Both the position numbers and the translations under genes were made by a program. A stretch of DNA of 64,000 bases from Ilumatobacter sp. (GTDB lineage: Bacteria; Actinomycetota; Acidimicrobiia; Acidimicrobiales; Ilumatobacteraceae): positions 1 through 64,000 of the forward strand of contig NZ_JASJCS010000010.1 in assembly GCF_030065885.1 (NCBI RefSeq). Reading direction: 5' to 3'. How positions within the stretch are numbered: position 1 is the first letter of the stretch; every line of letters starts with the position of its first letter. Of this stretch, positions 34,971-45,270 are shown in pieces. The notes below the pieces were generated by a model. The model saw only the letters and a program-made list of their open reading frames with translations. It made no database searches and had not been told where the DNA came from.

Positions 34971-37900
34971 CTACGAGCGGGGTGTCGTTCGGCGTCGGGT
35001 GGCGACGACCAGTGCCAGGCCACCCACCAGCGATGCCACGGCGAGTGCGAGGCCGTTCGACCCGCCACCGGTGGCCGGGAGGCCGCCAACGCTGAGCGTC
35101 GTCGACGTTGCAGGCCCTTGTGTCGGAGGCGGCACCGTCGTGGGCGCCTGGGTGCTCGGCGGGACGGTCGTCGGCGGGACGGTCGTCGGCGGCGGCACGA
35201 CATCGATCTCCGCAAAGTCGTTGTCGTCCTCGTCGCCGGGCGGATCGTCGAGGCCGATGTCGTCGTGGTCGTCCACGTCGTCGTTCGGCGGGGTGCCGGT
35301 TCCGGCGCCGTCGTCGTCACCGGTGTCCGCGTCCGGCGTCGAGTCCTCGTCGGTGGTGCCGTAGAACGCCGCCGAGTCGCTCGAGATCTCCGACCAGTTC
35401 CGGAACGGCGCCTCGGCAACCGAGTCCACGCGCGTGACGATCGAGAACCCGAGCTGGCCGGCGGGCGGCAGGGACGGAAGGTCGGCGAAGGTGAGCACGC
35501 GTCCCGCCTCGGCCGGTGCGACCGGAGCGCTCGTCGAGACGTAGCTCGTGCCGGCGGGGATCACGTCGGTCACGTCGTACGGGCCGGAGTCGACGTTGCC
35601 CTGGTTGGCGACCGTGACGACCCACGTGATCGTGTCGCCGGCGGCGACCGGTACGGTCGACTCGACGGTCTTGATCAGGGCGAGGTCGTAGACGACGCCG
35701 ACGTCGACGTCCTCGAAATCGTTGTCGTCCTCGTCCGGGGCCGTGACCGTCATGCCGTTCACGTCGGCGCCGGTGGCGTCGCCGCTGTCGAAGCCCGGGT
35801 CGTCGTGGTCGACTGCGTCGTCGTTCGGTGGCGTCCCGACGCCGGCGCCGGGGTCGGTGCCGATCGCGCCGCCGGGTTCGAGCCCGTTCGGTACCGAGTC
35901 CTCGTCGCGGGCGTCCGGCCCGTACAGCTGGGTGGCGCCGTCGGAGGTGATCTCGGCCCAGTTGCGGAACGGCCGCAGCGCCGGATCGCTGATCGTCGTG
36001 TCGAACGTCAGGGTCACCGATGCGCCGGGCGCGAGATTGCCGAGCGTCCAGGTGATCTGCTGCCCGGCGACGACGCCGCCGTCGCTCGGCGTCCCGACGA
36101 TCGTGAGACCCGCCGGTACCTCGTCGAGGACCTCGACGGGGCCGGAATCGACGTTGCCCTGGTTGGCGACGGTCACCTCCCATGCGATCGTTCCGCCCGG
36201 AGCCACCGGCGACGACGTCGGCGTCGTCTTGATCAGGGCGAGGTCGTAGACGCCACGCGTCAGCGTGGCGGGGTCGCGGTCGTCTTCGTCGCCGTCCGGG
36301 TCGGTGCCGTTCGGCGTGCCGCTGCCGTCACCGTCGATGGCATCGTCGGCCGGCGAGCCAGGCGCACCGCCGGGGTCATCGGGGTTCCGGTCGGGTGTCG
36401 AATCGAGATCCGGGTAGGCGGTCGGGTCGGTCTGCGAGTTCCCGCCGGCCGGGTTGTCGCCGTCGGCGAAGAGCGAGATCTCTGCGACGTTGACCAGCGG
36501 GTCGGCGGTCGGCGCCGCAGCGACGCGGAGCACCACGGGGAACGTCGCCGACTCGCCCGGCGCCAGCACGCCGACGAGCGTGGCGACGCCGTCGTCGCCG
36601 TCTGCCGCCCAGGTGACGTCGAGCGCGGTCGCCGGCGTCGCGAACGTGCCGCCCCCAGCGACCCACGCGTCGCCGCTCGACGGGCCGGTCGTGGTCGGCG
36701 GGTTGAGCGCTGCGTCGAACGGGCCGAACGATGCCGGGTCGACGTCGTCGAACACCTCGATCACGTCGACGTTTCGGAAGCCCTGGTTGAACACCTCGAC
36801 GGTGAACGTGACGAGTTCGCCGGGAACGGCGATCGTCGCCGTCGTCGTCTTGCGCAGGGCGAGGTCGTACGGCCCGAAGAGCACCTCGGTGTCGTCGTCG
36901 TCCTCGTCCGCCGGGTTCACGATGTTGTCGGTCGGGAGCACGTTCGTGCCGTCGTCGGGATCGACGACGGTCGTGCCGTTCGGCGTGCCGGGCTCGAATG
37001 CGTCGTTGCCCGGCGTGGCGTCGGGCACCGAGTCGACATCGGGCACCGGTTGGCGGGTCGGGTTCCCGTCGCCGTCGAGGTCGAGATCGCCCTCCATCGC
37101 GGAGATCTCCGCACCGTTGACGATCGTACCGTTCGACGGGGCGGCCGCGACCGTGAACAGCACCGGGATGACGACGGTCTCTGCCGGATCGAGCTGGTCG
37201 ATCGTGAAGGTGCCCCCGCTGCGGGTCACGCCGGCGGGCAGCCCGGCGTCGGTGGTGGCGCCGTCGAGCGTCAACTCGGCGGGCACCTCGTCGGTGACCT
37301 CGACGTCGTAGGCGGTGCTGTTGCCCTGGTTGTTGACCGTGATGTCGAACACGACGGTGTCGCCGACGTTCACCGTCGGCGACTGCCCCGCTGCCCGCGT
37401 CTTGATCAGGCTGAGGTCCCACCACGGCACGGTGGCGATGTCGGCGTCGTCCTCGTCGACGGGCGGTTGCTGGTCGACGATGTCGTCGACCTCGGGGTCG
37501 TTCGTGTCGTCGGCGTCGGGTGTGGAGTCGACGTCGACGAGCGGACCGGACGCCGGATTGTCCGGGTTCGTCGGGTCCGAGTCGCCGTTGGACGGATCGT
37601 CGTCGTCGTCGAAGTACGAGATCTCGGCGCGGTTGACGAGGTCGGGCGTACCGGTGACCTCGGAGAAGTCGGCGGTGAGGACGATCGGCACGAGGACCGA
37701 TTCACCAGCCGGGAGGATCCCGTCGATGCGCACCGGAACGAGCTCGAGGCCAGCGGCAGTGGCGTCACCGACGGTGTAGGTGTACGCCTGACCGGCGGCG
37801 CCGCCGAGCGTTCCGGGTGTCGTGGTCCCGGGTGGGTTGTCCGCGAGCAGGAAGTCCCATCCGGGCTGGACGTAGTCGGTGACGACCACCGGGTCGACGG

Positions 37901-40900
37901 CGACCGTGCCCTGGTTGAGGACCTCGACGAAGAACCGGAACTTGCCGTCGACGCCGAGAACGTCGGTCACGTCCGGCCGCTTGCGCAGCGCCAGGTCGAG
38001 CCGCTCGACGAAACCGAAGTCGACGGTGAGGTTGCTGAACGCATCGGGCGACTCGCCCGTCAGGACCATCGACGGTGTGTCGGACTCGCCGACCGGTTCG
38101 AACGCCCCGAGCGTGATCGGCGCCGAGGCGATGGCCCCGGCCGCGAGGTCGGCGAGCGCGCCGAGCGGGGTGTCGCCGCCGTGGTCGGTCGCGTCGTCGG
38201 CGAGGTCATAGCTCGTGGACGCCCCGGTCGACGAGGTCAGGCCCTCCAGCGGCTGGCCCGCTCCGAATCCGGCGGGATCGATGACGACGACGTAGTCCCC
38301 CGGCTGCAGCTGGGTGAAGAGGTAGTGGCCGTTCGCGTCGGTGGTCGTCGTGTCGAGGGCCGTACCGACCGGCGCGCCCGACGCATCGGCCGCGTAGAGG
38401 CGGACCGGGACACCCGGGATCGGGAGCTCGCCGGCACCGGGGTCGTAGACGCCGTTGTCGAACGCGGCGCCGAGCCCGTTGTCCTCCCAGACGAGGTTGC
38501 CGAGGCTGAACAGGGGCGTGAAGCCGAAGTCGACCGTTCCGTCGCCGCGGTCGTCGAGCAGGCCTGCGGCCGTGGCCAGCGGATCGTCCTCGCCGGTCGG
38601 TTCCGGGCCGTCGCCGAGCACGACGAGGTCCGAGACGATGCCGCCGGGCTGGATCGGAGCGGACAGCGGGGTGTTCTGCCCGCTGTCGTTGTCGTCGGCA
38701 CCGGTGGTCGGCGTCGACGTCGCGAGGTTCTCGAGCGGTTCGCCGGGCGCGAACTCGGTCGGCGGGATCACGACGACGTACTGCCCCGCAGCCAGCCCGT
38801 CGAACAGGTAGTCGCCGTTGCCGTCGGTCGTCTGGGTGTCGAGGATCGGACCGACCGGCTGGCCGCTGGCATCGGCTGCGTACAGCAGCACCTCGACGCC
38901 GGGGATCGGCGACTCCGACGCGTCGAACACGCCGTTGTCGACGTCGGCGGCAACCGTTGCGCCACCGTCGTCGCGCCAGACGGTCGAGCCGATCGAGTAC
39001 GGGAGCTCGAAGCCGGCGTCGAACGTGTGGTCGTTGTCGCCGGCCAGCCCGGTCGTCACCTCGATCTCGGGCAGCGCGCCGCCGAGGCCGAGCACGTCGC
39101 CGGTGACGATGTCGGAGTCGCGCCGGTCGTCGTCGCCGTCGCCGATCCCGGACGACCCGTCGACCTGGGTGACGACGAGGTCGGCGGCCGTGTACGGGCC
39201 GGGGACGTTGGTCGCCGTCGACTGGTCGAAGCGGATCACGTAGTCGCTGGCGAACTCGAGCAGCACGGCGTCATCGGCCGCCGACGCCGTGGCGTCCGCC
39301 GGGTCGGACACCCCGAACGTGTAGCGACCGTTGGCGTCGGTGGTCGCCGTCGCAACGAGTGTGCCGGCGTCGTCGTACAGCGTCACGGTCACGCCCTCGA
39401 GAGGCTGCTCGTCGGGGTCCTGGATCCCGTCGCCGTCGAGGTCGAGCCACACGTAGTCGCCGATCTCGATCGGGGCCGGGGCGCACAGTAGCTCGATGTC
39501 GCCGATGCCCGAGGCCTTGCCGAACGTCCCCGGCTCGTCCAGACCGAACACCTGGTACGAGCGGGTGCGCGAGCCATCGGCGTGCGACATCCAGATCAGG
39601 CCGCCCGAGCGGAACGAGTTCGCGAACGAGCCACCGCCCGGCGCCGGCACCGGACCACCCACCGGGGCGGGGTCGAAGGCGTTCGACACGACCTCGGCGC
39701 GACCGAGGAACACGGCAAGATGGCCGAGCGAGATCTCCTCGTGCGTCGGCGTCGCAGCGTCGAGCGTGTACCGCTCCGACCCGTAGAACTCGTCGTCGGT
39801 CGCCGGCGTCAACGACCAGGTGGCGCCCGAACGGGCGAGCCGCACCGTGTCGCCGCCAGCGACGCCTTCGCCGTTGCCGGCCCCAGCCGCAGTGTTGTCG
39901 TTGCCGAACTGGTCGCCGAAGCGGTCGGTGACGCCGAGGATCATGTCACCGTCCTCGTCGAACTCGATGTCGGTCACCCACGGCTGCGGGTAGTACGACT
40001 GGCCGAACGGCGCCGCCGGCCCTCCGGCCGGGAGGACCTGACCGCTGCCGTTGCGAGTTGGCTCGGCGGCGACCCACGGCAGGTACTCGGCACCGGCGAT
40101 CGTCGACCCGCTCCGCGACACCCACGTGCGGTCGTAGTCCAGCGGCACGTTCGCCACCTCGGTCGCAGTCCCACCGGCAGGGTCGTAGGCATACACGAAC
40201 GCCTGGAGGTCGGCGCTGGTCGCGCCGGCTCCGTCGCCGACGCACGTCGCGCTCAGATAGATGAGGCCGTCCTTCGCCTTCACGGCGCCGGGTACCCACG
40301 AGCCGTTCGTGCAGTCGGTGTCGACCGACGTGAGCGAGCTGAGGTCGACCGTCGACGGCGTGCCGGCCGCTGGCGGAACGACCGACGCATCGACCGGGAT
40401 CGCGTAGATCAACCGGTCGAACTGGTTGGCGGCATACAGCGTGGTCTCGGCCTCGTCGAGGTCGATGTCGCCCCAGCCGGTGCGGCCGACGTCGTCCCAG
40501 AACCCGACGTCGTCGATCAGGTCGGCGTAGTCGTGGTTGTCGTCGCCGGCCTCGATCGTCACGAACGGTACCGGTGCGGACCCGTCACGGAAGACCGTGT
40601 AGATCGTGTCCGGGCCGCTGTCGGCGGGCGCGCCGACGACGCCGCCCGGGTACGCGGTGTGCCGCTTCGCGTACGCGGCGGCGAAGATCACGTCCGCCTC
40701 GCGGTGGTACGCGAGGCCGCGGACCGGGCCGACCTCGTCGTCGGATGCCCGCTCGGGGTGCGGCGTCAGTGCGACGGTGGCGTTCGACGTGCTCGACGTC
40801 GTGCCCGCCTCGTAGACGAAGTCGACGACGGCCGGGCCGTCGGCCGCCGTGCTGCCGCCCTGGAAGCACGTCGTGGCGAGCTCGGCGTTCCGATCGCAGT

Positions 40901-41312
40901 ACTCGGCCGGATTCGTCACGCCGAGCGACGCCGTGCCGCCGGCATCGACGAACTGCACGGTCGTGCCGGAGTCCGGCCCGTCCTGTCCGGAGCGCACGAA
41001 GGCAGGTAGGTCGTCGAACTCGACACGGAACGGTCCCACGCCGAGGCCTGTGACATCGATCGAGAAGGTGCCGTCGGTCGCGACGGTTCCGGCGGCCGAG
41101 GCCCCGGCCGCGTCGTAGGCGATGACCGAATAGGCGGCGAAGTCCGGCTCCAACGCATCACGAACGCCGTCCGCGTCGTAGTCGCGGAAGACTTCGCCCG
41201 TGATCGGGGGATCACCGGGTGCGGCTCGCCCCGGCGACACCGCGCCCGTCACGAGCACCACGAGCGCAATCGACCCGGCAACGAGCGCGCGGGCCACACG
41301 AAACTCCGACAC
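34971..41312 (-). CDS. Giant LPATG-anchored surface protein with SdrD-B and DUF11 repeats
   Basis: 2113 residues from GTG 41312, preceded by GGAGG six bases away. A signal peptide (about 1-31, ending PGRAAPG) is followed by an SdrD-B-like domain to about 150. A middle region of about 450 residues resembles a beta-propeller. Three SdrD-B domains start near residues 616, 774 and 937 (first opens GDYVWLDLDGDGIQDPDEQP). Five DUF11 repeats start near 1104, 1296, 1478, 1688 and 1874, separated by Asp-rich linkers likely to bind calcium. The C-terminus has LPATG (about 2077), a hydrophobic stretch and RRR, a sortase sorting signal. It should stand off the cell wall as an adhesin or matrix fibre. No sortase gene is in the window. 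Confidence 0.92.
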   Translation of the reverse strand: MSEFRVARALVAGSIALVVLVTGAVSPGRAAPGDPPITGEVFRDYDADGVRDALEPDFAAYSVIAYDAAGASAAGTVATDGTFSIDVTGLGVGPFRVEFDDLPAFVRSGQDGPDSGTTVQFVDAGGTASLGVTNPAEYCDRNAELATTCFQGGSTAADGPAVVDFVYEAGTTSSTSNATVALTPHPERASDDEVGPVRGLAYHREADVIFAAAYAKRHTAYPGGVVGAPADSGPDTIYTVFRDGSAPVPFVTIEAGDDNHDYADLIDDVGFWDDVGRTGWGDIDLDEAETTLYAANQFDRLIYAIPVDASVVPPAAGTPSTVDLSSLTSVDTDCTNGSWVPGAVKAKDGLIYLSATCVGDGAGATSADLQAFVYAYDPAGGTATEVANVPLDYDRTWVSRSGSTIAGAEYLPWVAAEPTRNGSGQVLPAGGPAAPFGQSYYPQPWVTDIEFDEDGDMILGVTDRFGDQFGNDNTAAGAGNGEGVAGGDTVRLARSGATWSLTPATDDEFYGSERYTLDAATPTHEEISLGHLAVFLGRAEVVSNAFDPAPVGGPVPAPGGGSFANSFRSGGLIWMSHADGSRTRSYQVFGLDEPGTFGKASGIGDIELLCAPAPIEIGDYVWLDLDGDGIQDPDEQPLEGVTVTLYDDAGTLVATATTDANGRYTFGVSDPADATASAADDAVLLEFASDYVIRFDQSTATNVPGPYTAADLVVTQVDGSSGIGDGDDDRRDSDIVTGDVLGLGGALPEIEVTTGLAGDNDHTFDAGFELPYSIGSTVWRDDGGATVAADVDNGVFDASESPIPGVEVLLYAADASGQPVGPILDTQTTDGNGDYLFDGLAAGQYVVVIPPTEFAPGEPLENLATSTPTTGADDNDSGQNTPLSAPIQPGGIVSDLVVLGDGPEPTGEDDPLATAAGLLDDRGDGTVDFGFTPLFSLGNLVWEDNGLGAAFDNGVYDPGAGELPIPGVPVRLYAADASGAPVGTALDTTTTDANGHYLFTQLQPGDYVVVIDPAGFGAGQPLEGLTSSTGASTSYDLADDATDHGGDTPLGALADLAAGAIASAPITLGAFEPVGESDTPSMVLTGESPDAFSNLTVDFGFVERLDLALRKRPDVTDVLGVDGKFRFFVEVLNQGTVAVDPVVVTDYVQPGWDFLLADNPPGTTTPGTLGGAAGQAYTYTVGDATAAGLELVPVRIDGILPAGESVLVPIVLTADFSEVTGTPDLVNRAEISYFDDDDDPSNGDSDPTNPDNPASGPLVDVDSTPDADDTNDPEVDDIVDQQPPVDEDDADIATVPWWDLSLIKTRAAGQSPTVNVGDTVVFDITVNNQGNSTAYDVEVTDEVPAELTLDGATTDAGLPAGVTRSGGTFTIDQLDPAETVVIPVLFTVAAAPSNGTIVNGAEISAMEGDLDLDGDGNPTRQPVPDVDSVPDATPGNDAFEPGTPNGTTVVDPDDGTNVLPTDNIVNPADEDDDDTEVLFGPYDLALRKTTTATIAVPGELVTFTVEVFNQGFRNVDVIEVFDDVDPASFGPFDAALNPPTTTGPSSGDAWVAGGGTFATPATALDVTWAADGDDGVATLVGVLAPGESATFPVVLRVAAAPTADPLVNVAEISLFADGDNPAGGNSQTDPTAYPDLDSTPDRNPDDPGGAPGSPADDAIDGDGSGTPNGTDPDGDEDDRDPATLTRGVYDLALIKTTPTSSPVAPGGTIAWEVTVANQGNVDSGPVEVLDEVPAGLTIVGTPSDGGVVAGQQITWTLGNLAPGASVTLTFDTTISDPALRPFRNWAEITSDGATQLYGPDARDEDSVPNGLEPGGAIGTDPGAGVGTPPNDDAVDHDDPGFDSGDATGADVNGMTVTAPDEDDNDFEDVDVGVVYDLALIKTVESTVPVAAGDTITWVVTVANQGNVDSGPYDVTDVIPAGTSYVSTSAPVAPAEAGRVLTFADLPSLPPAGQLGFSIVTRVDSVAEAPFRNWSEISSDSAAFYGTTDEDSTPDADTGDDDGAGTGTPPNDDVDDHDDIGLDDPPGDEDDNDFAEIDVVPPPTTVPPTTVPPSTQAPTTVPPPTQGPATSTTLSVGGLPATGGGSNGLALAVASLVGGLALVVATRRRTTPRS
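35560..38010 (-). repeat. Five DUF11 repeats inside the giant surface protein
   Basis: Each unit opens with a variant of YDLALIKT and contains VxNQGN and a V[TL]DEVPAG-like turn. The units begin near 38000, 37425, 36880, 36250 and 35690 on the minus strand, with spacing that varies from 545 to 630 bases because of Asp-rich linkers. The last two are the most alike (GNVDSGP in both), which suggests recent duplication. Confidence 0.85.
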
Positions 41313-41918
41313 TTCACACCTCCAACGCGGCCCGCCCGACGGGGCGAAGATAGAGCGACCGTCGCACCGCGACAAGTCCTCCGCACGATCTCCTCTGCAC
41401 GATCAGGGCCACGCGTACGTGGCGCAGGACGGCGTACAGCGCTGATCGCCGACGGCGATGCGGCGCCCACGCCACACCGATCCGCGGCAGCCGCGTTGAT
41501 GGGATCCGACAGCCCCGAGATCGCCCGGTTCTCGTCGAGCCAGGTGACCTCGTGCCCAGATCCGGCGCTGGCGTGCCCGGTCCGGCCCCCGTGCCGGCGA
41601 ACGTGTCATCGCCGGGCGCGGGTTCGAGCGGGCTGCCCATCTCGGAACGTCGCGATCGCCCCGAAGCACGCAAGATCGGTGCGTCCCGGGATCGAGTGAC
41701 ATCGCTCCGAGTGCAGGACCTCCACGTCACTCGCCGAGCAGTCGGCTGGCGTGTCGATCCACGGCCAGACGGGCGTCCGCCCCTCGACTGCGTCGACCCG
41801 ACCGGCGTGGGGTCGGCAGTTCGTCAAGATCCCCGCACATCGTGGCCCCGGCCGGCCCGCGATCGGACGATCGAAGGCCTACGGACAGGACGCGCACTTC
41901 ACGGAGGAGGTGACGGAT
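41313..41918. other. 606-base divergent regulatory region, no gene recognised
   Basis: It separates the giant surface-protein gene (leftward) from the TasA-like/signal-peptidase genes (rightward). I recognise the leftward promoter and a small GCCACG-CGTA-CGTGGC hairpin, but no rightward promoter or riboswitch. Overlapping frames on both strands have Arg-rich shadow translations. At this length it could hold further control sites or a small RNA. Confidence 0.5.
41347..41375 (-). promoter_or_regulatory. Promoter of the giant surface-protein gene
   Basis: On the minus strand TTGTCG (41370-41375) and TATCTT (41347-41352) are 17 bases apart. Transcription from about 41340 gives a leader of some 28 bases that includes the GGAGG ribosome binding site. 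The -10 box is identical to that before the 18030 gene. Confidence 0.6.
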
Positions 41919-42503: not shown

Positions 42504-42609
42504 TCGCCGTTCCCCTTCCTGCGCGCCACCGACTCAAGGTGGTCGTCGATGGCGTCGATGAGTGGATATGACGCGTCCCGACACGTGGGACCGAACAAGG
42601 AGAACCAAC

Positions 42610-43191
42610 GTGGAGACCACCCCCCATTCACAGGATCGTCGGAGCCTCGGCGGCGTCATCCTCGCCTCGGCCATCGTGTCGGCACTGCTGGTCGGCGTGC
42701 TCGCCTACAGCGCGACGAACGCCGCCTTCACGGGCGTCACCGGCAACACCGGCAACACCTTCGAGGCCGCCACCGTGTCGCTGACCGACGACGACTTCGG
42801 TGGCACGAACTTCCAGGTGACCGACATGATCCCCGGCGACACGGTCACCGACTGCATCGAGGTCGAGTACACCGGCTCGACCACCGATCTGGCCGGGTTG
42901 CGGCTGTACGGCGCGTCGAGCGGCGACCTCGCCGACGATCTCGACCTGAACGTCCGCCACGGCGCCGCCGGAAGCAGCTGCGCGGCACCCGGCGCCCTCA
43001 CCGGCGTCTACTCCGGTGACCTCGACGCGCTCGGTACCGACTGGGCGACGGGCAGCGCCGGCTTCACGCCGACCGCTACGAACGAGACGGTCGCGTACGT
43101 GTTCGACGTGACCCTGAAGGCCACGACCACCGACGCCGCTCAGGGTGACACGGCGAGCGCCGACTTCACCTGGGAGGTCCGGTCCAACTGA
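42610..43191 (+). CDS. TasA/camelysin-like secreted protein 2
   Basis: 193 residues from GTG 42610, with AAGGAG seven bases upstream. The signal segment (GVILASAIVSALLVGVLAYS) ends in ATNA, followed by AFTGVTGNTGNTFEA, the start expected of SipW-processed TasA/CalY proteins. The rest is a predicted beta sandwich with two Cys. It is clearly a paralog of the upstream gene. It lies 15 bases before the signal peptidase-LamG gene. In bacilli such proteins form extracellular fibres or act as surface proteases; here the role is inferred. Confidence 0.82.
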   Translation: METTPHSQDRRSLGGVILASAIVSALLVGVLAYSATNAAFTGVTGNTGNTFEAATVSLTDDDFGGTNFQVTDMIPGDTVTDCIEVEYTGSTTDLAGLRLYGASSGDLADDLDLNVRHGAAGSSCAAPGALTGVYSGDLDALGTDWATGSAGFTPTATNETVAYVFDVTLKATTTDAAQGDTASADFTWEVRSN

Positions 43192-43206: not shown

Positions 43207-45270
43207 GTGAGCACGGGCCTGGCTCACCGCGCTCGGACGAGCGCATCGGTCGCCCCGGATCACTCCGACCTCGAGGGTCGGGATGGCACGGTGGCGACCG
43301 AGTCGCGTCCCGACGGCCGACGGTTCGGCACGACCGGGTTCGTCGCTTCGATGGCCGGCCGGTTCCTGGCGATGTCGTGGTGCTGGACCATCATCTGGCT
43401 CACGCTGTGGAGCGTGGTCCCGATCGTGCTCGGGTGGTCGCCGGCGGCCGTCACCGGGTCCTCGATGGAGCCGAGCCTCCGCTTCGGATCGGTGGTGCTC
43501 CTCGACGACGGCGTCGACCTCGACACCATCGGTCCGGGGGCCGTCGTGTCCTACGACGACCCGGGGCTGCCCGGGATGCGGGTCACACATCGCGTCATCG
43601 AGGTCGAGACCGACGGCGACCGCGTCGTCGCCTTCCGGACGATGGGCGATGCGAACGAGGTGCCCGACTCCACCGTCGTTCCCGTGGAGCGGGTCCACGG
43701 TGTGGCGCGGCTCGTGGTGCCGTACGCCGGCCTGCCGAAGGCGTGGACAGCCTCCGGACAGTGGACGGAGTTCGCCGCGTTCGCCGTCCTGACGCTCGTC
43801 GCCGCCATCGTCTCCATGGACACGCTCCAGCGGCTCCGGTCCGGTCCGGATCGCGGCAGGCGGGGCCGCCGACGCCAGACCGCTGCGATCGGCGTCGCGA
43901 TCGCCGCCATGCTGGGGGCACCGTCGACATCGGCGGCGTTCACGAGCCAGACCGGCGACGCCGGCAACGACTTCGCGATGACGTCGCAGTGGTTCCTCGA
44001 CACGATCGACCGCGACGCGCCCGTCGCTCACTGGCGGCTCGGCGAGGCGGCGGGCGGGCCACCGGTCACCGTGCTCGTCGACGACTTCGAGACGTTCTCG
44101 GGATACAACACCTACGGCGCCGGCAGCTTCGTGTCATCGACCGCCCAGGCACGCTCGGGGACACGCTCGGGCCTCAAGACCGGGAACAACGACCCCAACG
44201 GCGGCTGGAAGGCGCTGCCGGCGACGGTGAGCGGCAGCTTCGTGTTCGAGGTCTGGGTCTACCGCCCGAGCGGCTTCGCCGGCGGATCGATCGATCGACT
44301 CGGCCTCGAGGATGCCGGGTTCAACGGCTACACGTTCCTGGTCGACCACAACGGCAACCGACTCGGCATCGATCGCCGGACCGGAGGGTCGCCGAGCTCG
44401 ATCGGCACGACGGTCGCCTTCGACCCACCCGAGGACAGCTGGTACCGACTCCAGCTCGTCCGCTCGGGCGCCGCGCTGACCCTGAGCGCCTACGACGGGG
44501 CTGGCACGCTGCTCGCGAGCACGTCGGCGATCGACGGCACGACGACGACCTTCGACCGACTCGCGATCCACGGCGGCTGGGACTACTACGTCGACGACCT
44601 GATGGTCGTGCAGACCAACCCGACGCTGGTCGCGGTCGACCGCATCGGCACGCTCGACGGCGGATACATCGGCGGTCCGCTGCTCGGCCAGCCCGGGCTG
44701 ATGACCAGCGATGGCGACACGGCCGCTGATCTCGACGGCATCGACGACGCCGTGCTGATCGGCGACGACGCGCTGGTCAACCTGTCGACACGAGGGGAAC
44801 GCACGACCGAGCTGTGGTTCGAGGCCGACTCCACGAGCGGCCGCCAGGTGATCTACGAAGAGGGTGGGACGGTCAACGGGTTGAACGTGTACCTCGACGA
44901 CAGCCAGCTCTATGCGACGGCATGGAGCCAGTCGACCGGTTGGAGCACGCCGCTCGTGACCAGCACCCCGATCGCGGCGAACACCGCCTACCACGTCGCG
45001 GTGGCGCTCGACGCCGTGACGTCGCGGTCGCTGACGTTGTACCTCGACGGCGTCCCCGTCGCGAGCGCGTCCAAGACCGACGCCAACGCCTGGAACGCCC
45101 ACAGCGACGACGGCGCCATCGGGGTGCTCAACGGTGGCACCCAGTTCCACGACGGCGACTCGTCGGCGAGCGGCTCGTTCGCGTTCGACGGCACGGTCGA
45201 CGAGGTCGTGCTGTTCAACAGCCTCGTCTCACCGGGCCGGATCGCCAACCACCACGCAGCCGGCGGCTGA
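43207..45270 (+). CDS. SipW/ER-type signal peptidase fused to LamG-like ectodomain
   Basis: 687 residues. A membrane helix (about 56-76) leads to the peptidase: TGSSMEPS with nucleophile Ser86, VTHRV with His128 where bacterial type I enzymes have Lys, and GDANEVPDS with Asp148/Asp154. This is the Ser-His arrangement of SipW and eukaryotic/archaeal signal peptidases. A second membrane helix (about 187-203) is followed by a basic stretch (GRRGRRRQ) and a third hydrophobic segment (228-238). Then comes TSAAFTSQTGDAGNDF, which copies the cleavage region of the upstream substrate. Residues about 265-687 are two LamG/concanavalin-like beta-sandwich units (YRLQLVRSG; AYHVAVALDAV; LYLDGVPVA). The fusion of protease and substrate-like domain is unusual. 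Confidence 0.85.
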   Translation: MSTGLAHRARTSASVAPDHSDLEGRDGTVATESRPDGRRFGTTGFVASMAGRFLAMSWCWTIIWLTLWSVVPIVLGWSPAAVTGSSMEPSLRFGSVVLLDDGVDLDTIGPGAVVSYDDPGLPGMRVTHRVIEVETDGDRVVAFRTMGDANEVPDSTVVPVERVHGVARLVVPYAGLPKAWTASGQWTEFAAFAVLTLVAAIVSMDTLQRLRSGPDRGRRGRRRQTAAIGVAIAAMLGAPSTSAAFTSQTGDAGNDFAMTSQWFLDTIDRDAPVAHWRLGEAAGGPPVTVLVDDFETFSGYNTYGAGSFVSSTAQARSGTRSGLKTGNNDPNGGWKALPATVSGSFVFEVWVYRPSGFAGGSIDRLGLEDAGFNGYTFLVDHNGNRLGIDRRTGGSPSSIGTTVAFDPPEDSWYRLQLVRSGAALTLSAYDGAGTLLASTSAIDGTTTTFDRLAIHGGWDYYVDDLMVVQTNPTLVAVDRIGTLDGGYIGGPLLGQPGLMTSDGDTAADLDGIDDAVLIGDDALVNLSTRGERTTELWFEADSTSGRQVIYEEGGTVNGLNVYLDDSQLYATAWSQSTGWSTPLVTSTPIAANTAYHVAVALDAVTSRSLTLYLDGVPVASASKTDANAWNAHSDDGAIGVLNGGTQFHDGDSSASGSFAFDGTVDEVVLFNSLVSPGRIANHHAAGG

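Follow-up and report, generated by a model that had tools for sequence, protein, structure and literature searches.

Why should the gene of a signal peptidase run on, beyond its catalytic domain, into a segment resembling the signal peptide of a substrate and then into a large exported domain? This question is raised by P0001, a protein encoded in a 64,000-nucleotide stretch of DNA from Ilumatobacter sp. (NCBI RefSeq assembly GCF_030065885.1, contig NZ_JASJCS010000010.1, positions 1 to 64,000 of the forward strand), which was analysed as a whole and is referred to here as the window. Judged by sequence comparison, the ectodomain of P0001 is probably a genuine SipW-type substrate that is released by its own peptidase, either in cis or on a sister copy. 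The parts of the chain that matter for this reading are the following:

43207..45270, + strand: P0001, the fused chain of signal peptidase, internal signal peptide and ectodomain (687 amino acids, GTG start, stop-free frame)
43384..43770, + strand: signal peptidase I domain of the SipW/endoplasmic reticulum (ER) type, from a TIGR02228 score above the cut-off
43462-43464, 43588-43590 and 43648-43650, + strand: catalytic residues Ser86, His128 and Asp148, the last from a GDAN motif
43762..43842, + strand: second membrane segment (helix 186-212 in the AlphaFold2 (AF2) model; hydropathy)
43843..43878, + strand: Arg-rich, predicted cytoplasmic loop that precedes the internal signal peptide (linker charge count)
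43879..43935, + strand: predicted internal signal peptide with a hydrophobic core at about residues 225-237 and a c-region, P1 being Ala243 (alignments, profiles)

Residues 60-187 of P0001 match TIGR02228, the NCBIfam model of archaeal/ER-type signal peptidase I, with 72 bits against a cut-off of 51.85, and the best solved relatives of this domain are SEC11C and SEC11A. The score with NF046067, the SipW equivalog of Bacillus, is 53.9 bits and lies below the cut-off of 190. The catalytic pair is of the Ser-His and not of the Ser-Lys type (Ser86 and His128), and both residues are invariant in all 40 rows of an alignment of fused proteins (alignment A3). The GTG start is putative; the matched catalytic core starts only near residue 54-60. 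The third hydrophobic segment, a predicted helix at residues 221-236 in the AF2 model, follows a 21-residue linker that starts slightly before the Arg-rich loop and carries eight positive and two negative residues. It ends with STSA|AFTSQTGDAGNDF, which gives T241-S242-A243|A244-F245 as the predicted site, with Ala243 at P1 and Phe245 at P2'. The original prediction, made from the DNA letters alone, had placed a Ser-His peptidase, a hydrophobic segment and a cleavage motif in one chain, and all three are found with the residues and the site that it gave. The order of peptidase, positive loop, hydrophobic segment and motif fits an internal signal peptide, and we infer a topology in which peptidase and cut site lie outside and the positive loop lies inside. 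TasA of B. subtilis, which is cut by SipW, also has Phe at P2' (PMC10269814).

The predicted site is conserved. When 13 fusions were aligned with MAFFT without any motif rule, Ala243 was invariant and P2' was occupied by Phe in ten, Tyr in one and Leu in two proteins. Among the 40 fused rows, some of which are near-copies, Ala243 is the only listed column past Trp180 that is conserved at 90% or more. A junction profile of 39 rows has Phe at P2' in 30 rows and Tyr, Trp and Leu in three rows each; its anchor rule demands A-x-[FYWLV], so that the presence of Ala at P1 in 39 of 39 rows is partly so by construction, and the case for P1 conservation is made by the rule-free alignments (the 13 fusions, the 40 rows and alignment A4). 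The profile goes back to 48 junction candidates from loci L001-L121, of which 11 were removed, three as near-copies (L088, L094 and L114) and eight as mis-anchored or lacking a clear motif (L024, L053, L054, L064, L066, L068, L069 and L086); L064 and L068 were restored with the right anchor.

The same architecture recurs widely among Actinomycetota. A whole-protein search of 296 genomes of the class gave a match in 40, and 13 of the 30 loci retained, including the window, encode peptidase, second segment, third segment, motif and ectodomain in one chain. A DNA pattern for the peptidase core, blind to whatever comes after it, yielded 34 named loci: 23 such fusions, eight stand-alone peptidases and three cases of a different fusion. 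The fusions come from Saccharothrix, Actinokineospora, Pimelobacter, Cellulomonas, Modestobacter, Amnibacterium, Frigoribacterium, Curtobacterium, Microbacterium and other genera; L086, one of these 23, was called fused by eye and not by the profile at 0.01, as were L132 and L136. In a search across the phylum, a peptidase-junction profile matched 77 of 296 genomes, fused and unfused together. Single-protein scans of viral contigs and genome contigs with P0001 confirmed no relatives. Plasmids gave 15 matching records, of which three, chosen by product names hinting at a fused tail, were examined. All three (two from Arthrobacter, one from Pseudarthrobacter) carry the same gene pair, namely a "hypothetical protein" whose signal peptide bears the motif and, after it, a peptidase fusion, whose junction is matched at domain E values of 1.3e-8, 9.7e-7 and 2.1e-5. 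These fusions are annotated after the ectodomain alone, as "Ig-like domain-containing protein" or "glycosyl hydrolase", and the product names thus hide the peptidase. Two single-contig genomes of the same genus (G002 and G157) gave no match with the peptidase-junction profile at 1e-12, with seven candidates scored in each, so that even members of one genus seem to differ in having the locus.

The likeness between the junction and free signal peptides of neighbouring genes was assessed with held-out profiles. One of them, built from 21 rows comprising fused junctions of named actinobacterial loci only, was run against 3,314 open reading frames (ORFs) from 20 loci of the class and the window, among them 20 signal peptidase ORFs, 16 of them fused. 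It matched the window junction at an E value of 7e-5 and the protein encoded directly upstream, P0002, at 5e-6. Its 26 matches below 0.01 comprise eight of the 20 peptidase ORFs, all at the junction, and 18 other ORFs, every one of which adjoins a signal peptidase gene on the gene maps; reversed ORFs gave no match below 0.01 (best 0.79). In the opposite direction, the matches were five of 37 peptidase ORFs, a set with 24 fusions, and 19 further ORFs, again without a match below 0.01 among reversed ORFs. The junction profiles are specific yet insensitive. Furthermore, a profile of 44 free signal peptides, which had themselves been picked by the junction profile (L129 and L137 were skipped), found the window junction at 8e-6 and the junctions in ten further of 57 peptidase ORFs, and nothing outside the junction in those 57 ORFs below an E value of 1. 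The earlier claim that the junction resembles the upstream secreted protein is thereby borne out beyond chance.

Gene order ties the fusions to a secreted partner. A free gene for a motif-bearing secreted protein lies directly upstream of the peptidase in the window and in 14 of 15 fused loci of the class (the exception is L132), and a neighbour of this kind is present in 14 of the 23 fused named loci, where the available upstream sequence is short in some cases. The four stand-alone loci of the class that were fetched (L137-L140) all contain a TasA-like gene, the signal peptidase and a separate secreted protein, encoded downstream on the peptidase's strand, with its own motif-bearing N-terminal signal peptide. 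Fibre protein, peptidase and secreted protein are thus encoded in this order by the split loci; in the fused loci, the fibre protein is followed by the peptidase joined to the secreted protein. The named stand-alone loci are more varied: at L067, L075, L081 and L089 a motif-bearing gene, which may be that of the TasA-like protein itself, comes right after the peptidase; L082 carries one only upstream, at L071 two lie on the opposite strand, the one at L087 is 3 kb away, and none was seen on the gene map of L083. On a tree of the peptidase domain, the best topology requires at least eight changes between fused and not fused, two of them forced by well-supported branches; this tree of 126 columns holds 75 of 95 rows (two near-copies and 18 rows from a search of a distant order were left out) and is poorly resolved.

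Two genes for TasA-like proteins immediately precede P0001:

41751..42503, + strand: P0003, a second TasA-like protein, whose signal region ends TRSALDV without an AF(T/S) motif
42562..43191, + strand: P0002, a TasA-like protein with the SipW-type signal peptide TNA|AFTGVTGNTGNTF (profiles, predicted fold)

P0002 is the likely fibre subunit and free substrate of the peptidase. A profile of 27 upstream proteins (A5) has only two matches in the PDB at E values up to 1, both of them TasA (0.15 and 0.19). The AF2 model of P0002 has a predicted local distance difference test score (pLDDT) of 86.4; Foldseek matched it to the TasA fibre 8aur at an E value of 2.2e-6, the sole match at or below 0.001, and VIA ranked three TasA chains at the top (Z 9.1, 8.9 and 8.8; next 7.6), the best of them with a root-mean-square deviation of 3.6 over 133 aligned residues. 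P0002 is therefore predicted to have the TasA jelly-roll fold, and the suggestion in the original prediction that the released part joins a TasA-like matrix gains support from this model. NF046066, the sequence model of TasA, leaves P0002 unmatched at E values up to 1, and its score for the relative from L122 is 16.7 bits against 450. P0003 is 36% identical to P0002 over 176 columns and matches A5 at 1.1e-20; P0002 and P0003, both just upstream in the window, are exactly the two matches to A5 in the genome at E values up to 0.01.

The strand donated in the TasA fibre is formed by residues 28-38 at the mature N-terminus, which the N-terminus of TapA resembles (PMC9674648). The corresponding stretch of P0001 is:

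43936..43980, + strand: predicted new N-terminus, positions +1 to +15 (AFTSQTGDAGNDFAM), with Phe245 at P2', which resembles the neighbour's donor-strand stretch

Fusion junctions and TasA-like neighbours are alike from +1 to +15 (F+2, T+6, N+8, N+11, aromatic or Leu at +13, A+15). Past +15 the likeness ends: the fusions lack G+16, V+18 and L+20, which are prominent in the neighbours. Four Microbacteriaceae rows were re-registered by three residues for these comparisons, and the upstream set excludes six free rows that lie downstream of, or on the opposite strand to, a stand-alone signal peptidase. Signal peptidase normally reads about P3 to P2', and the likeness at +6 to +15 is not explained by this usual reach. 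At the 26 loci with both genes, within-locus identity at +3 to +15 is 0.376 versus 0.320 after permutation, a value reached in eight of 5000 permutations, which were run within three groups and control for shared ancestry only partly; the h-region in the same test gave values as high in 3336 of 5000. Use of this stretch as a donor strand by the released fragment is a hypothesis to which these comparisons lend modest support.

The exported part of P0001 is built as follows:

44011..44067, + strand: start of LamG, about residues 269-287 (our reading of alignment A4)
44068..44622, + strand: insert of about 185 amino acids within LamG, residues about 288-472 (alignment A4)
44623..45267, + strand: remainder of LamG (Pfam match at residues 511-680)

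Laminin_G_3 (PF13385) scores 60.7 bits at residues 511-680, against a gathering score of 27.6. The insert is missing from all 12 other LamG-fusion rows, and pLDDT in this part of the model is mostly below 50. The presence of LamG thus agrees with the original prediction; the plural "domains" used there does not, and the ectodomain is, from the alignment, better read as one LamG domain interrupted by the insert. Across the 40 fused rows, Laminin_G_3 was found in 14, RCC1 in three, CBM96 in two and ice-binding, FG-GAP and beta-propeller domains in one each. The junction is kept while the ectodomain family changes (LamG, RCC1, CBM96, ice-binding, Ig-like, glycosyl hydrolase). At L168, on the Pseudarthrobacter plasmid (4055-5518, + strand), the tail is annotated as a glycosyl hydrolase and the annotated start lies inside the peptidase domain; the released part can hence be an enzyme and not an adhesin alone. 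The label TafC, a fimbrial protein, was considered as well: NF052521 (TafC, cut-off 410) matches five of the 40 fused rows at E values up to 0.01, the best at 6.7e-20. For P0001 the label was set aside, NF052521 being unmatched at E values up to 1; in three fusions scored singly it reached 15.8, 22.8 and 30.6 bits against 410 and covered the C-terminal LamG part.

These observations can be brought together in one explanation. The peptidase gene would have absorbed the next gene of the operon, whose product was a surface protein secreted by means of a SipW-type signal peptide of its own. The resulting chain would cross the membrane three times, with the peptidase domain facing outward, and the third segment would enter the membrane as an internal signal peptide that places A243|A244-F245 at the outer face, on the side of the active site. 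Cleavage by the peptidase at A243|A244, in cis or on a sister copy, would free the LamG part, whose new N-terminus AFTSQTGDAGNDF would keep the donor-strand stretch of the TasA-like neighbour without the TasA core. Lacking this core, the released protein could donate a strand but not accept one, and in the manner of TapA it may start or cap the P0002 fibre and carry an adhesive domain at that fibre end, and the fusion would provide one such protein per peptidase. We consider this explanation as a whole, from absorbed substrate gene through self or sister cleavage to a TapA-like start or cap, reasonably probable. Its extension to Actinomycetota at large, namely that self-processing peptidase-adhesin chains are widespread, that the cut exposes a donor strand starting or capping the neighbour's TasA-like fibre, that protease, fibre starter and adhesin are produced in a 1:1 ratio and that the binding domain is swapped freely from species to species, is a tentative and somewhat doubtful proposal.

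Several results weigh against this explanation. The held-out profiles overlook half or more of the fused ORFs (eight of 16 and five of 24 were found). By the original prediction, homologs without the second hydrophobic segment and AFT...GN motif would mark a chance resemblance; the fused homologs mostly keep both, and those that do not conform are L046, L053 and an 877-amino-acid ORF of L066, which have an extracellular tail but no clear motif, and L086, which has Val at P1 where its relatives have Ala. TIGR04088, the NCBIfam model of the SipW-cognate signal peptide, leaves P0001 unmatched at E values up to 1; it also misses P0002, the free substrate of the window, and among 14 fused proteins scanned singly it found only that of L092, with 9.8 bits against a cut-off of 19. 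The AF2 model of P0001 is poor past residue 236 (mean pLDDT 53.5), and past the peptidase it is too poor to position the cut site at Ser86. The genome encodes a second, stand-alone SipW-type peptidase (TIGR02228, 84 bits). With regard to the donor strand, besides the partial control for ancestry, the likeness at +3 to +15 weakens in subsets taken alone (34 of 5000 permutations as high for nine Microbacteriaceae, 118 of 5000 for 13 class loci), the stretch +3 to +11 in the class alone gives 761 of 5000, and the fusions of L127 and L091 barely resemble their own partners (0.08 each).

Some of these points would suit a third segment that stays uncut and acts as a plain anchor, holding LamG beside the peptidase, where it might, for instance, dock the TasA-like fibre at the membrane as it emerges. 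The topology permits this, the donor-strand-like stretch would be exposed even without a cut, and some tails lack a clear motif; an anchor, however, would need neither a near-invariant Ala at P1 nor a small residue at P3 nor an aromatic one at P2', and in the split loci this stretch stands at the N-terminus as an ordinary signal peptide, which makes an uncut segment unlikely in our view. We assign a similarly low probability to cleavage of the junction by another signal peptidase, in which case the fusion would be a passive merger of two operon genes. The second TIGR02228 peptidase would be available for such a cut, and the alternation of fused and unfused states on the tree would suit a merger. 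P-type LepB, on the other hand, cleaves sites with an aromatic P2' poorly (PMC10269814). The invariance of Ser and His in the 40 fused rows also argues against a merely passive merger. Moreover, no neighbour within 12.2 kb of the second peptidase reaches the junction profile at an E value of 0.01, and several genomes with a fused peptidase (e.g. G001, G018 and G066) have a single match to the signal peptidase profile at 1e-12, with seven candidates scored per genome.

That two separate proteins arise by internal initiation before the third segment, without any physical fusion, is very improbable. An in-frame ATG or GTG does occur in the scored linker of 23 of 37 fused ORFs, and in the window an in-frame ATG (Met204) was seen by eye just before the linker; yet a Shine-Dalgarno-like stretch precedes the linker start in only three of the 37 by a crude test, and none was seen by eye ahead of Met204. 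The start is not conserved, as 14 of the 37, the window included, have no ATG or GTG in the linker. Least credible of all is a chance resemblance of the hydrophobic segment to a signal peptide. The motif is short, its context is rich in Ala and the anchor rule of the 39-row profile imposes part of it, but the rule-free alignments agree, the three outside plasmid loci agree too, and the held-out matches together with reversed controls that have no match below 0.01 already contradict it.

Three further observations were made on the way. The second peptidase of the genome is encoded at L170 (contig 82, 5726-7125, - strand) by an ORF of 282 amino acids starting from 6280; the ORF that follows it (from 5726, 240 amino acids) looks secreted and has no AF motif. 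In the window, a surface protein of 2134 amino acids with SdrD_B and DUF11 repeats and a C-terminal LPATGG-like motif is encoded on the opposite strand (34971-41375, - strand), just upstream of the TasA-like genes. The different fusion mentioned above joins a SipW-type peptidase through several membrane segments to GGDEF and EAL domains, as in L066 (1140-4304, + strand) and L069 (3-4040, - strand). L036, L037, L038 and L084 are judged to carry it likewise from their similar tails, Pfam matches being at hand only for L066 and L069, and all six cluster together on the peptidase tree (support 85). A cyclic di-GMP enzyme joined to a matrix-type signal peptidase would itself be striking.

A large set of peptidases thus carries a substrate-type site and an exported domain within the same chain, usually beside a TasA-like gene, which hints that TasA-like fibres of Actinomycetota at large may bear lectin-like, ice-binding or hydrolase domains at their tips. 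Should the peptidase cut itself, the ratio of peptidase to fibre starter would be fixed, and a clean system would be at hand for studying site recognition by ER-type peptidases in cis and in trans; combined with strand donation, self-release would be a new way of coupling a protease to fibre assembly. The original prediction had suggested that the arrangement would be new. Among the matches listed in the openly licensed literature, judged by titles and the starts of abstracts, no description of a signal peptidase fused to its own substrate was found. The parts are known. What was not found described within the literature so searched is their combination in one chain in this order, how widely it occurs and the exchange between fused and split states. 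The arrangement is, on the other hand, not a one-off, as 23 of the 34 named loci in the pattern sample share it.

The usual view of signal peptidases is that their substrates are other proteins. P0001 is akin to the ER-type signal peptidases I (TIGR02228; SEC11, SipW) in its score above the curated cut-off and its Ser-His(-Asp) residues, and differs from SEC11 and SipW in that its second membrane segment leads into an internal signal peptide and then a large ectodomain. Membrane proteases that cut themselves are known in BlaR1 and LepB, with which P0001 shares the possibility of cutting its own chain; unlike these, it has a full site of the signal-peptide type, and cleavage would release a secreted product. 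An analogy is provided by the two-domain tip adhesins of chaperone-usher pili, in which a binding domain at the fibre end is joined via a donated strand. In contrast to these adhesins, P0001 has no pilin domain and there is no usher, and its strand would be N-terminal and exposed by the peptidase. The closest comparison is with the Bacillus matrix systems, tapA-sipW-tasA in B. subtilis and sipW-tasA with calY nearby in B. cereus. There as here, the gene for an ER-type peptidase stands beside that of a substrate with the TasA fold, a predicted one in the present case, and the TasA site has an aromatic residue at P2'. A further component in Bacillus is TapA, which starts the fibre with its N-terminal strand (PMC9674648, PMC10151520). 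The actinobacterial loci differ in that the further component is part of the peptidase chain, placed after an internal signal peptide, and has LamG or other domains in place of the Ig domain of TapA.

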